In this document: positions 4,734 to 26,659 of the stretch, piece by piece
Layout of the letters: every line of letters begins with the position of its first letter
How positions within the stretch are numbered: position 1 is the stretch's first letter
Source of the DNA: a virus
IMG/VR virus record: IMGVR_UViG_3300025870_000050
Coordinates: 1-29,103 of that record
Direction: 5' to 3' (one strand)
Length of the DNA: 29,103 nt
Made by a program: the position numbers and the translations under genes
Notes under the pieces: model-generated
The model's input: only the letters and a program-made list of their open reading frames with translations
Database searches by the model: none
Told to the model about the DNA's origin: nothing

Positions 4734-6469
4734 CGCTTACACAATTCGCCAAAGCGATGAAACCACCGAGCGACCTTTCGGCGGTCGACTGGGCTTGTAA
4801 GTATGTGAAGCTGCCGCAGTCCGCAAGGTCTCCACAGTTCGACATCGACTCAACGCCGTGGCTAAGGTTTCCAATGATGCAGATAGCGGACGATGAGAAC
4901 CGAGAAGTTGTCGTTATTGCCCCAGTTGGATCAGGTAAAACAACAATGCTCGAAGGCTTGCTCCCTTGGATTATATCAGAAGAACCAGGACCAACTCTGG
5001 TAACGTTCCAAACAGACAACGACGCGAGAGACTGGGTCGACACAAGATTCCATCCATCGCTAAAACTCAACGAAAAAGTAAAGCCACTCATACCAACAGG
5101 AAAGCACCGAGGCAATTTCAGAAAGAATGAGATTCTATTCCCGCATATGCCGCTGTTTATGGGTGGCGCTAACATTAGTAACCTGCAATCCAAGTCTATC
5201 AGGTGGGTATACGGTGATGAGGTTTGGATATGGAAGGACGGTATGCTGGAGGAGGCACGACGCAGAACACACGACCGATGGAACAGTAGGGTAGTCTTAG
5301 TTTCTCAAGGCGGAAGCGAAGGAGATCAGCTAGACGTAGCATTCAAGGATGGGAACATTCATGATTTCTGTTTTGAGTGCCCTAAATGCAAGACCGTCCA
5401 ACCGTGGGAGTGGAAGCAAGTGAAATATAAACACCACAAAACGAAAGCGGGGGATTGGGATTGGAACAAAATCGGGAAGTCTGTGCATTACGAATGTGCA
5501 AACAAGAAATGCAAAAAGAAATTTAAGGACAAGCCAGACGTGCGCAGGGGCTTATCCAAGTCGGGGCGATACGTGAGCAGAAACAACAACCACAAACCTG
5601 GCAGAGTATCCATGACCTACCCAGCAATGGCTGTTTGGTGGATCGAGTGGAAGAAGCTTGTCGGTGAGTGGATATCAGCACAAGACGCACGCAAGAAGCT
5701 AAACATGTCGCCATTCAGACAGTTTATCCAGAAGCGACTCGCACAGAGTTGGGAGGAACCGCAAGAGGTTATCACACTGAAAGGATCGACGGAAATATAC
5801 AGACTAAATAAGTATCACGACGGCGCAAAATGGGAAAAGGAGATCGTTAGGTTCATGACTGTTGACGTGCAGCAAGATTGCTTCTTCGTGGTGATTCGGG
5901 CATGGAGTGGAGAGGGGGAGAGCTGTCTAATGTATGAAGGCAGAACAAACGAGTGGGAGGGACTAAGGATACTTCAAGAAAAAATGAAAGTTGAAAACAG
6001 GTTCGTGTTTGTTGACCGTGGATATAGACCGGAGACAGTCGCGCTAGAGTGTAGCAGAGCGGCAACAAAAGACGACCCAGCGACGTGGAACTGCTTGCTC
6101 GGCGAGGAGTCAAACGGCTACGCAATCAAGGTTAATAATAAGCAGGTGACAAGACCATTTTCGACAATCAAAAGAGCGCGAACGACTAAGGGCTTGAGGT
6201 GGAGATATGTGAAGTTTTCAAACCTACTTGCCAAGGATACGCTGGCGGCGCTTATGCGTGGAGAGGGTGCAGGATGGCACATAGGGAGCGACTATTCGGC
6301 TGAGTATAAAAAGCAAATTCAGAACGAGAAGAAGGTGGAGATATCGCCTGGAAGGTGGCGCTACGTTGTGAAAAAGAAATGGGTCGGTAACCACCTATGG
6401 GACTGCGAGACGATGCAGATTGTCGCCGCGTCAATTTACGGCGTATTTAACACAGAGGAGGAGGTTTGA
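4724..6469 (+). CDS. terminase large subunit (lambda gpA family)
   Basis: The 581-residue ATPase-nuclease powers DNA packaging into the prohead. The N-terminal motor has Walker A APVGSGKT (residues ~66-73) and Walker B WVYGDE (161-166). A zinc-ribbon-like insert has cysteines at ~216, 219, 222, 258 and 263. The C-terminal nuclease has an acidic strand TVDVQ (~D381) and a second acidic site expected near VDRGY and the C-terminal DCET. The start ATGGGATTAG overlaps the small subunit's stop; an upstream in-frame ATG at 4592 lies deep in the small-subunit gene and is rejected. Length is slightly below lambda gpA (641). Confidence 0.95.
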   Translation: MGLALTQFAKAMKPPSDLSAVDWACKYVKLPQSARSPQFDIDSTPWLRFPMMQIADDENREVVVIAPVGSGKTTMLEGLLPWIISEEPGPTLVTFQTDNDARDWVDTRFHPSLKLNEKVKPLIPTGKHRGNFRKNEILFPHMPLFMGGANISNLQSKSIRWVYGDEVWIWKDGMLEEARRRTHDRWNSRVVLVSQGGSEGDQLDVAFKDGNIHDFCFECPKCKTVQPWEWKQVKYKHHKTKAGDWDWNKIGKSVHYECANKKCKKKFKDKPDVRRGLSKSGRYVSRNNNHKPGRVSMTYPAMAVWWIEWKKLVGEWISAQDARKKLNMSPFRQFIQKRLAQSWEEPQEVITLKGSTEIYRLNKYHDGAKWEKEIVRFMTVDVQQDCFFVVIRAWSGEGESCLMYEGRTNEWEGLRILQEKMKVENRFVFVDRGYRPETVALECSRAATKDDPATWNCLLGEESNGYAIKVNNKQVTRPFSTIKRARTTKGLRWRYVKFSNLLAKDTLAALMRGEGAGWHIGSDYSAEYKKQIQNEKKVEISPGRWRYVVKKKWVGNHLWDCETMQIVAASIYGVFNTEEEV

Positions 6470-15771: not shown

Positions 15772-16362
15772 ATGGCGAGCAAATCCAACAACGGCAACCT
15801 GCCGCTGGGACGGTCAAAAATAGACGCGTCCAGAGGTGTGGAGTCTGCGCTTTCCAAGCTGTCCCACCAAGTCGGGGCAAGGACGCCACGCCAGAGCATG
15901 ACGGCGGGAAGCAAGCAACTCCACAATGGAGTGTTTCTGGAAGCTCCGAGGGTAAGGGCTAGGTCGTCCAGTGCGTGCATACTAGGCGAGTACACTGTTG
16001 ATCCAGACGATGAAACTAAGGTGATCATAAGTTCGGGCTGGCTACACGCTCCAAACAAATCCGTATTGCTAGAGCCATCTCCGATGACGCCGACAGCTGG
16101 GCACAAAGTTTGGATTGAGTGCCCGTGGACGGCAACACTCAACGACGACAACGTGCTTGAGGCTGGGGGCGAGCTAGGAACTCACACAATATCGACCGGC
16201 GCAACAATGCCCGACAACGTAGTTCCACACGTTGACAGCTTGACAGGGACTCTGTATGTGCCAATAGGAGCATGGAACGATGATCTAGCATGGATTAGAG
16301 AGGGATGCGGGTCGTTTACAATCGGATTTTGCCCAAGAGTTTTTTCAATAGAAAGGGGGTAA
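15772..16362 (+). CDS. distal tail protein, unassigned
   Basis: The 196-residue protein has a basic, probably disordered N-terminal ~45 residues (SNNGNLPLGRSKIDASRG) and a beta-rich remainder (VIISSGWLHAP, VWIECPWTATLN, GTLYVPIGAWN, GSFTIGFCPRVFSI). No enzyme motif. It ends with the codons for ERG, whose AGGGGG also forms a strong Shine-Dalgarno for the ATG at 16364. Probably part of the tail tip with the genes on either side. Confidence 0.68.
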   Translation: MASKSNNGNLPLGRSKIDASRGVESALSKLSHQVGARTPRQSMTAGSKQLHNGVFLEAPRVRARSSSACILGEYTVDPDDETKVIISSGWLHAPNKSVLLEPSPMTPTAGHKVWIECPWTATLNDDNVLEAGGELGTHTISTGATMPDNVVPHVDSLTGTLYVPIGAWNDDLAWIREGCGSFTIGFCPRVFSIERG

Positions 16363-16363
16363 T

Positions 16364-16381
16364 ATGGGCGAATATACATGA
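16364..16381 (+). other. five-codon start with in-frame TGA joined to the next tail gene
   Basis: ATG 16364 follows AAAGGGGGT at ideal spacing and reads M-G-E-Y-T, then TGA (16379-16381), then in the same frame GCCYPSCPVPS and the rest of the gene at 16415. Only this TGA separates the best start from the coding body. It also overlaps an ATG in another frame (ATGA), which opens only 51 codons. Confidence 0.6.
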
Positions 16382-16405
16382 GGCTGTTGCTACCCATCGT
16401 GCCCT

Positions 16406-16421
16406 GTTCCAAGTTTGGAAC
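16406..16421 (+). other. perfect 16-nt palindrome downstream of the in-frame TGA
   Basis: GTTCCAAGTTTGGAAC is a perfect inverted repeat (six pairs around AGTT), 24 nt after the TGA. A weaker outer helix (GGCT at 16382 with AGCC at about 16428) can enclose it. It could be a recoding hairpin or incidental. Confidence 0.5.
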
Positions 16422-17449
16422 ACAGAGAGCCGCATGGTTTCGATGCGTGGACAAAAGCCACGACCAACCCGGACGGCTCGCTAGGCGCTATCGTGGATGG
16501 AGACTATCCAGAAATTTATCAGATCTTCACTAAGTGGAAGACCCAGCTTGATTTCAATAGTGTTTACCACAACACCACAGCAAACCTCGGCGACGATGAT
16601 CAATATCTAGCCGTAGCTAAAAGCCAAAGCGGTAACATATGGGCTGAGCGTCACTACGAGGATGAATACAACGAGAACACAATTACCTACACCGGCGGCG
16701 GGTCATTAGTCAGAAGAACTGAACTTAATTTTTTCTGGTATGGAACCACGCCGGGGTTTGAATACTTGAGAGAGCTTACAATAGAGACGTTTACATATGA
16801 CTCAGATTTGGACTTCACGAAGGTCAGGGAGTGGACGAAGTATGATTATACAGGAGCGGTCATTGATTCATCGACAACGACAACCACCCAGGATATCATG
16901 TCGATCGGTCTGGGGTGGTCACACCCAGTTGACAAGACGGTCACGCGCAGTAACACTGAATACAAGAGCGCATACACCACAGCCACACCAAGCAGTTCCA
17001 ACATTACAGCAGGCGGGACTTTCAGCTATACAGACACCAAGTCAGAACCTGCCGCGAACCAATGGCGGGCAGTTATACCGCACGACTTTGACCCTCCCCC
17101 GCTACCTTCTGGAGCGCCAGACCCACCGCTTGAGTCACAAGATCAGAGGTGGCACGGAACTTGGCACAACGTCGAGGTGTGCGAGGTTATGACGCCAGAA
17201 GATCACGACCCGCTCGACCCAGCGTCACCACAAAAGCAGGAGACAGCATCAAACGAGGAATGGACAGGTCCTGGATTATTGATAAATTATGACGGTTTCG
17301 ACCTACTGACAGACGAGCAGAAAGAAACAAGGCGAGAATCATGGAAGTCTGACTGGGTTGATGTTGGATGGGCGCAGGAGGAGGGCGCTGTTGACGTATT
17401 ATTAAAGCGGTCGCAATGCTATCACGGGGCACCGTGGGTTTATCATTAA
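16415..17449 (+). CDS. large tail protein, beta-rich; true start probably upstream of an in-frame TGA
   Basis: From the first usable start after the TGA (TTG 16415) the product is 344 residues; if the TGA were read through from ATG 16364 it would be 361. There is no ATG in frame for well over 100 codons, so a conventional start is missing. The upstream in-frame segment is cysteine-rich (G-C-C-Y-P-S-C-P). The body is Thr/Ser/Asp-rich with strands such as NTITYTGGGSLVRRT and GTFSYTDTKSEP and repeated W residues, resembling an extracellular tail-tip or fibre protein. No enzyme motif. Followed by the GGTTGAATTC element and the next tail gene. Confidence 0.75.
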   Translation: MEHREPHGFDAWTKATTNPDGSLGAIVDGDYPEIYQIFTKWKTQLDFNSVYHNTTANLGDDDQYLAVAKSQSGNIWAERHYEDEYNENTITYTGGGSLVRRTELNFFWYGTTPGFEYLRELTIETFTYDSDLDFTKVREWTKYDYTGAVIDSSTTTTTQDIMSIGLGWSHPVDKTVTRSNTEYKSAYTTATPSSSNITAGGTFSYTDTKSEPAANQWRAVIPHDFDPPPLPSGAPDPPLESQDQRWHGTWHNVEVCEVMTPEDHDPLDPASPQKQETASNEEWTGPGLLINYDGFDLLTDEQKETRRESWKSDWVDVGWAQEEGAVDVLLKRSQCYHGAPWVYH

Positions 17450-25605: not shown

Positions 25606-26016
25606 ATGAATACAAAACCAATACCGAAAGGCGTTCCCGTTGAAGGGGACATGACAAAAGCGCTCGACGCAAGATTCGTAAACAGCATCGTTCTACAGGG
25701 CGCGCTAGACAAGACAGGCAAGGAGACGCTAGACGTGACCATTGACCGCGTTGAGTTTCACGAGCTTCTTAAATACGAAAACGGAAGCAAGGACGCCAAT
25801 GCGTACCTGCTCTACTTCAAAGGCAGTGACAAGCCCTTGAAGCTTGCTAAGGCAAACATTAAGCGACTGATCGCCCAACACGGGACGATTGGCGAGGGCT
25901 GGCACGGTAAGCCTGTGAGCCTATGCCTAGAGCAAGACCGCAGACCAGACCTAGGAGGAAGACTAGGACCATGCGTAAGGGTAAAATACACACCAACCCA
26001 ATACAAAAGAGCATGA
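25606..26016 (+). CDS. hypothetical protein of the recombination module
   Basis: The 136-residue protein has a pattern common in phage genes beside recombination nucleases: strand DVTIDRVEFHELL, YLLYFKGSDKPLKLAKANIKRLIAQHG, then GWHGKPVSLCLEQD and ending PCVRVKYTP. This looks like the small protein that often accompanies RecT/Exo-type genes. Function unknown. Its stop overlaps the first repeat-protein start (ATGA), placing it at the head of a four-gene coupled set. Confidence 0.6.
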   Translation: MNTKPIPKGVPVEGDMTKALDARFVNSIVLQGALDKTGKETLDVTIDRVEFHELLKYENGSKDANAYLLYFKGSDKPLKLAKANIKRLIAQHGTIGEGWHGKPVSLCLEQDRRPDLGGRLGPCVRVKYTPTQYKRA

Positions 26017-26246
26017 AAAAACCAACACCAGAAGAAATATCAGAGGTTGCGTCGTTTGGATATGACGAAGACGGAAAGCTAGTCTTAACAAAGTTAAAAA
26101 CCGACCTGATTGGCGACCACATCGGAAACCACTGGGGCGACCACATCGGCGAACACTGGGGCGACCACATCGGCGACCACGTCGGCAACAACTACGGAAA
26201 CCACGTCGGCGAACACTGGGGCAAAACTTACAACCCAACAAAATGA
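26013..26246 (+). CDS. G-x-H-x tetrapeptide-repeat protein, short paralogue
   Basis: This 77-residue protein has a 33-residue N-terminal segment (MKKPTPEEISEVASF, YDEDGKLVLTKL) then nine consecutive four-residue units G-[D/N/E]-H-[I/V/W/Y] (residues 34-69; one unit has Asn for His) and an end GKTYNPTK. It is paralogous to the next gene over the N-terminal segment and the end. Gly and His recur strictly every fourth residue, so if it forms a beta strand, Gly/His would lie on one face and D/N plus aliphatic/aromatic residues on the other. Coupled (ATGA) at both ends. No known family comes to mind; not a pentapeptide-repeat or RTX protein. Confidence 0.85.
   Translation: MKKPTPEEISEVASFGYDEDGKLVLTKLKTDLIGDHIGNHWGDHIGEHWGDHIGDHVGNNYGNHVGEHWGKTYNPTK
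26112..26219 (+). repeat. 12-bp tandem repeat array, 9 units
   Basis: Nine 12-bp units with consensus GGCGACCACATC encode G-x-H-x. Codons are nearly invariant (GGC, CAC) with differences confined to second and fourth codons, pointing to recent expansion. Confidence 0.9.
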
Positions 26247-26659
26247 AAAAACCAACACTAGACGAAATATTAGAGATCGCATCATTTGAATACGACGAAG
26301 ACGGAAATCTAGTCTTAACAAGACTAAACACCCACTTGATAGGCGACCACATCGGCGACCACGAAGGCAGCCACCGCGGCGACCACGTCGGCAACCACGT
26401 CGGCAACCACGTCGGCAACCACGAAGGCAACCACCACGGCGCCCACCACGGCGCCCACCACGGCAACCGCCACGGCTCACACTACGGCGACCACATCGGG
26501 AACCACTACGGCGACCACGAAGGCAACCACGTCGGCGACCACGTCGGCATCCACTATGGCAACCACGAAGGCACCCACATCGGCAAACACGAAGGCGACC
26601 ACGTCGGCAACAACTACGGAAACCACGTCGGCAAAACTTACAACCCAAAAACAAAATGA
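26243..26659 (+). CDS. G-x-H-x tetrapeptide-repeat protein, long paralogue
   Basis: This 138-residue protein has an N-terminal segment like its neighbour's (MKKPTLDEILEIASF, YDEDGNLVLTRL, LIGDHIG) and 24 uninterrupted G-x-H-x units (residues 34-129), His at the third place in 22 of 24, then GKTYNPKTK. Position 2 is mostly D/N; position 4 varies (V, I, E, Y, H, R). Both paralogues contain GNNY-GNHV near the end, marking a conserved terminal cap. The His content is very high (more than 25 residues), so metal binding is plausible. ATGA overlaps couple it to the short paralogue and to the exonuclease. Function unknown. Confidence 0.85.
   Translation: MKKPTLDEILEIASFEYDEDGNLVLTRLNTHLIGDHIGDHEGSHRGDHVGNHVGNHVGNHEGNHHGAHHGAHHGNRHGSHYGDHIGNHYGDHEGNHVGDHVGIHYGNHEGTHIGKHEGDHVGNNYGNHVGKTYNPKTK
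26342..26629 (+). repeat. 12-bp tandem repeat array, 24 units
   Basis: Twenty-four 12-bp units of the form GGC-NAC-CAC-NNN. Three adjacent identical units (GGCAACCACGTC, 26390 onward with the first differing by one base) and an identical GGCGCCCACCAC pair show local duplication. Likely variable in copy number. Confidence 0.9.

Follow-up and report, generated by a model that had tools for sequence, protein, structure and literature searches.

The locus examined here raises the question of whether a TGA at the sixth codon of a viral tail-block gene is read as an amino acid and, if so, as which one. The sequence is an IMG/VR virus record of 29,103 bases (the whole stretch analyzed, referred to below as the window) from an uncultured bacterial virus. 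On its plus strand, five codons beginning at an ATG at position 16364 run into a TGA at 16379 to 16381, and beyond it this frame has no further stop until a TAA at 17447 to 17449. An earlier note had drawn attention to this arrangement and had proposed that the TGA encodes selenocysteine (Sec); its reading from the ATG (M-G-E-Y-T-TGA-G-C-C-Y-P-S-C-P-V-P-S-L-E) and its count of 344 codons between a TTG at 16415 and the TAA are both accurate.

An in-frame TGA shared by two viral lineages

The same TGA recurs in two more assemblies of this virus, one 99.3% identical to the window over its own first 3,089 bases (L001, with a single and synonymous difference within the gene) and the other 99.96% identical (L002). 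It also occurs in a second, diverged lineage represented by L016 (from 3300034411_000505) and L017 (from 3300034380_000026), which share 80 to 87% identity with the window in most alignable DNA. Because five contigs of two lineages carry the same TGA, we reject both a base-call error and a private or recent nonsense mutation as its origin, two alternatives that had been raised at the outset. In a third relative (L018, positions 5434 to 5629), the homolog of the gene upstream has no stop at ERG and continues to the end of the contig as a tandem array of units that encode DIATNTG; the TGA gene was not seen in L018, which ends within this array.

The arrangement is rare in these genomes. A screen for an ATG followed by a TGA within 30 codons and then by an open stretch of 150 codons or more, the first 100 of them free of ATG, returned one site per virus: a single match on the two strands of the window and a single match, the orthologous site, in a related 31-kb contig. 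The same screen of the plus strand of phage P8625 gave no match. The genetic code does not appear to be reassigned, since TGA serves as an ordinary stop elsewhere in the virus, where it ends 9 of 36 candidate genes; this count, together with a search that found no second conserved TGA lying in frame with coding support before and after it, led us to reject a global reassignment of TGA to Trp or Gly. Other conserved stops that lie in frame ahead of an open reading frame (ORF) either preceded a normal ATG by a few codons or lacked coding support.

Coding constraint on both sides of the TGA

In both lineages the N-terminal module has the form MG[E/G]YT-TGA-GCCYPSCPVPSLE. Over codons 1 to 19 (57 bases), the two lineages that constitute the conservation evidence differ by only five substitutions, four of which are synonymous third-position changes (P of about 0.02 under random change; dN of 0.024, dS of 0.458, and dN/dS of about 0.05 by the Nei-Gojobori method). 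Within the interval from the TGA to TTG 16415, all three changes are synonymous (P again about 0.02 under random change). The earlier note had named, among the outcomes that would refute its proposal, homologs lacking any conservation ahead of the TTG; the result was the opposite, with codons 1 to 19 forming the best-conserved part of the gene and a body that is far more diverged. The proteins of the two lineages can hardly be aligned over codons 20 to 234, directly past the hairpin described below, but reach 63% identity over the C-terminal ∼127 residues, where third positions account for 77 of 142 changes; both proteins end in LLKRSQCYHGAPWVYH. From the TGA to the end, the ORFs are intact over 355 codons in the window and 397 codons in L016. 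Conservation of the TGA, together with coding constraint before and after it, indicates that the UGA is most likely read through, and translation through the UGA is the best-supported reading of the gene and, so far as comparative sequence evidence goes, a well-supported one.

The variable middle of the gene has sharp borders: window positions 16421 to 17065 are swapped for hardly alignable sequence in L016 (5650 to 6417), in viruses that are otherwise 80 to 87% identical. Such a sharply bordered variable segment of a tail gene is as expected for a receptor-facing domain.

Table 1. Features at and around the in-frame TGA (window coordinates)
Feature	Position	Strand	Description
Upstream tail-block gene	15772..16362	+	Kept in L016 (94%) and L018 (74%); served to reach relatives
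Shine-Dalgarno match AAAGGGGG	16352..16359	+	4 nt before ATG 16364; doubles as coding end of upstream gene (...ERG-stop)
Tail-block gene read through TGA	16364..17449	+	361 residues, one at UGA; N-terminal 19 codons kept, codons 20-234 highly variable, C-terminal 127 residues kept
Candidate Sec codon, in-frame TGA (codon 6)	16379..16381	+	Motif U-G-C-C (UxC / UxxC); kept in L001, L002, L016, and L017
Codons 7-19, GCCYPSCPVPSLE	16382..16420	+	3 of 3 substitutions relative to second lineage synonymous, third position
Possible longer stem around hairpin	16394..16437 (16394-16398 with 16432-16437)	+	One A-U to G-C compensatory change in second lineage
SECIS-like hairpin TGTTCCA-AGTT-TGGAACA	16405..16422	+	7 bp; loop AGUU, G at loop position 2 then U; loop begins 30 nt past UGA
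TTG, sole early in-frame alternative start	16415..16417	+	First base is last base of loop, rest in 3' arm of hairpin; no Shine-Dalgarno

A strong start upstream of the TGA and a hairpin downstream of it

The Shine-Dalgarno sequence of ATG 16364 (AAAGGGGGTAAT) forms a duplex with the anti-Shine-Dalgarno of -12.0 kcal/mol, the strongest among 34 genes scored and well ahead of the next value, -5.5, so the description of this site in the earlier note as the strongest in the tail block holds. At the orthologous start of the second lineage the Shine-Dalgarno is AAAGGGGC. Nearly all genes of the window virus lack a Shine-Dalgarno and have A/C-rich leaders (AACAACAAC), and the value at 16364 is exceptional. 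It had also been claimed that no other ATG follows for well over 100 codons, and indeed this frame of the window has none until codon 179 (173 codons without an ATG), and the orthologous frame of L016 has none at all.

Downstream of the TGA lies an inverted repeat that was first described as a perfect palindrome 24 nt past the TGA. The distance is correct (GTTCCAAGTTTGGAAC starts 24 nt after the TGA), but the element is a 7-bp inverted repeat with a 4-nt AGTT loop rather than a perfect palindrome. A published bacterial SECIS (bSECIS) model specifies a loop of 3 to 9 nt, an upper stem of 4 to 16 bp, a G in the first two loop positions, a distance of 16 to 37 nt from the UGA, and an MFE of -7.5 or lower (PMC13188914). 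The window hairpin fits this model (7 bp, AGUU loop, 30 nt, and -8.1 kcal/mol with its flanks, the bare 18-nt hairpin at -7.4 being slightly short of the cutoff), as does the hairpin of L016 (AGUU loop, 30 nt, and -8.5 to -11.2), in which the upper stem is the same and the lower stem is different. Among the TGAs of the window, the chance rate of such a fit is 2% under rigid rules and 10% under lenient rules, and we give the fit moderate weight as support for Sec. The whole region of 44 to 101 nt is not unusually stable (z of -0.1 to -1.3). The longer stem with one compensatory pair (Table 1) is suggestive and not significant, with 80 of 500 column shuffles equally good, and we did not retain it.

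Homologs, decoding machinery, and host

The earlier note had asked whether codon 6 is Cys, Trp, or Arg in relatives. It is TGA in both lineages, and no homolog with any of these residues was found in IMG/VR or in the phage and genome collections; for Cys in particular, IMG/VR, phage records, and two scans of genome contigs yielded none, leaving the two lineages of the gene as those known. The DNA patterns for GCCYP[ST]CP, CCYPxCPxP, and WHGTWH recovered from IMG/VR the two known lineages and chance matches in other frames, and the scans of genome contigs, one with the gene and one with the terminase, returned zero matches. A phage match designated H21 (E = 9) was dismissed as chance because it has no start and no Cys module, and a resemblance of the C terminus to P8625 gp20 (a WHG motif) was lost on profile comparison. 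Pfam gave no match to the UGA-read protein and PHROG none to the part past TTG 16415; in these two databases the tail gene has no homology to a known selenoprotein family. An AlphaFold model built from the two sequences had a pLDDT of 27 and was useless.

Neither the window virus nor the second lineage was found to encode tRNA-Sec or SelB, and at gathering thresholds the viral sequences gave no match to Rfam and none in tRNA scans. For the major capsid protein, Verrucomicrobia phage P8625 (29%) was the sole match among phage records; for the portal this phage ranks first, and for the terminase it is one of the top matches. Taken together, the capsid, portal, and terminase matches point, if weakly, to a host that is probably Verrucomicrobiota-like. 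Sec decoders exist in the wider PVC group, the Planctomycetes being an example (PMC4807772).

Two other features of the window deserve mention. The 122-amino-acid protein encoded at 641 to 1009 is a DnaA C-terminal DNA-binding domain (PF08299, E value of 2.6e-23) without the remainder of DnaA. Two adjacent ORFs (25923 to 26246 and 26243 to 26659) encode extended arrays of a four-residue unit, G-[DN]-H-x (GDHIGNHWGDHIGEH... and GNHVGNHEGNHHGAHHG...), and the second of these had no match in a Pfam search.

What is inserted at the UGA

On balance, we favor the reading that the gene starts at ATG 16364 and that the UGA at codon 6 is decoded, most likely as Sec, by host machinery directed by the hairpin. 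Sec is favored by the U-G-C-C-Y-P-S-C-P context and by a GU-loop hairpin that, in each lineage, conforms to the bacterial SECIS model. A UxxC motif with a neighboring Cys is the usual context of Sec, and UxxC selenoprotein families have been tabulated (PMC9312934). The original Sec proposal thus stands in part, namely, translation through the TGA, the Cys-rich context, and the fit to the SECIS model, while a Cys homolog was not found; judged from the sequences compared, Sec is the best, if unproven, reading of this residue.

In the mechanism that we propose, a SelB-GTP-Sec-tRNA complex of the host would bind the hairpin at 16405 to 16422, whose apical loop lies 30 nt downstream, and Sec would be inserted at UGA 16379. 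At one UGA-SECIS site in vivo, the recoding efficiency has been reported as 30 to 40% (PMC4513850). Decoding of this kind would give a 361-residue minor tail protein with an N-terminal selenenyl/thiol cluster, T-U-G-C-C-Y-P-S-C-P, followed by a variable middle that may face outward and then by the conserved C terminus. Through its Sec and Cys residues, this N-terminal cluster may engage in selenylsulfide or metal links at the tail. We infer the identity of the residue as Sec, Sec synthesis by the host, presence of the protein in the virion, and a redox-active or metal-binding role for the cluster.

The main rival to Sec is programmed leaky readthrough, in which a near-cognate tRNA (typically Trp) would read the UGA occasionally, few copies of a minor tail protein would be made, and the identity of the residue would be irrelevant. 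It would account for the kept TGA and for coding constraint on its two sides with no Sec machinery, and conserved in-frame stops with dN/dS of <1 downstream have been reported as widespread in bacteria (PMC7918605); figures that this source quotes from work it cites are 6% readthrough at a TGA mutation in one bacterial reporter and 19 to 54% in a release-factor mutant. Readthrough was, moreover, first discovered in a phage, Q-beta (PMC8310308). We nevertheless regard it as unlikely here, because ribosomes recruited to the strongest binding site in the genome would mostly be lost at codon 6 and because it leaves unexplained both the U-G-C-C...C context and the GU-loop hairpin at SECIS distance in both lineages.

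Less probable still is reinitiation, according to which MGEYT would be a five-codon leader peptide and the true protein would begin at TTG 16415 (344 amino acids) or at a later GTG or TTG. This TTG is kept in both lineages and the ORF that it opens is intact. The interval between the TGA and the TTG, however, has been kept as protein, unlike an untranslated spacer, and the TTG itself has no Shine-Dalgarno (-0.2 kcal/mol) and sits in the hairpin. The other genes of the candidate set start with ATG, or in one case GTG, and never with TTG.

We give little credence to other forms of recoding. Termination and reinitiation at the overlapping ATGA (ATG 16378, MRLLLP.V.CSKFG) would be a common coupling arrangement, with a peptide that resembles a lipoprotein signal; yet this frame ends after ∼50 codons, is not conserved past 14 residues, and shows one synonymous and two nonsynonymous changes where the main frame shows three synonymous ones. 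Neither does a frameshift or bypass that avoids the UGA fit, since the context is ACA UGA with no RF2-like CUUUGA slip site for a +1 shift, the same frame continues past the UGA, and a landing codon for bypass (a matching ACA) is not conserved. Least probable of all is a shared dead gene, with a nonsense codon fixed before the lineages split and decay in both: a single early in-frame stop is a classical sign of a pseudogene, but a neutral gene at this divergence would be expected to have lost its frame, and we found no further stop or frameshift in 361 codons of the window or 403 of the second lineage, along with the C-terminal identity, third-position changes, and low dN/dS over codons 1 to 19 given above.

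As a conserved recoding candidate, then, the gene is solid, and as a phage selenoprotein it is plausible. Our more specific proposal, of a bacteriophage structural selenoprotein that places a Sec-Cys cluster at the N terminus of a tail protein and uses the Sec machinery of the host, is a tentative one.

Significance and comparison with known systems

Known bacterial selenoproteins are mostly redox enzymes, and a tail-block gene that retains Sec would point to redox chemistry in the tail; it would also show that gene callers misplace the starts of such genes. If the reading is true, infection would be tied to selenium and to Sec-decoding hosts, with the virus dependent on the selenium metabolism of its host. 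We found no phage selenoprotein in the literature searched, in which three studies of prokaryotic selenoproteomes make no mention of phages or viruses (PMC13188914, PMC9312934, and PMC12013277), and if confirmed, a phage structural selenoprotein would be of a kind for which this literature gave no report. Novelty would lie in the protein family and in its occurrence in a phage, the mechanism itself being one already known.

The closest parallel in mechanism is with bacterial bSECIS selenoproteins (FdhF of Escherichia coli and the UxxC thiol-disulfide families), which likewise have an in-frame UGA with a hairpin of the coding sequence directly downstream, a G and then a U in the apical loop, a spacing of 16 to 37 nt, and a Cys-rich UxxC context. 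The tail gene differs from these in its position in a phage tail block, in a UGA as early as codon 6, and in having neither homology to a known family nor a Cys homolog that we could find. Among viruses, the glutathione peroxidases of poxviruses (molluscum contagiosum and fowlpox; PMC8310308) are also read through a UGA as Sec by host machinery, but they are captured eukaryotic enzymes with a eukaryotic SECIS, whereas the present gene belongs to a phage structural block and has no cellular relative. A link between phages and Sec decoding has been proposed for Basilisk-like Bacillus phages, for which the excerpted text of one study reports a tRNA-Sec and names no selenoprotein (PMC6145125); here the situation is reversed, with a candidate selenoprotein gene and no tRNA. 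Finally, the readthrough form of the Q-beta coat protein (A1) and other conserved in-frame stops (PMC8310308 and PMC7918605) resemble this locus in that an in-frame UGA is read through in a virion gene. In Q-beta, however, readthrough adds a C-terminal extension to an abundant protein, whereas here termination would leave only five residues, so that any product of this gene needs the UGA to be decoded.
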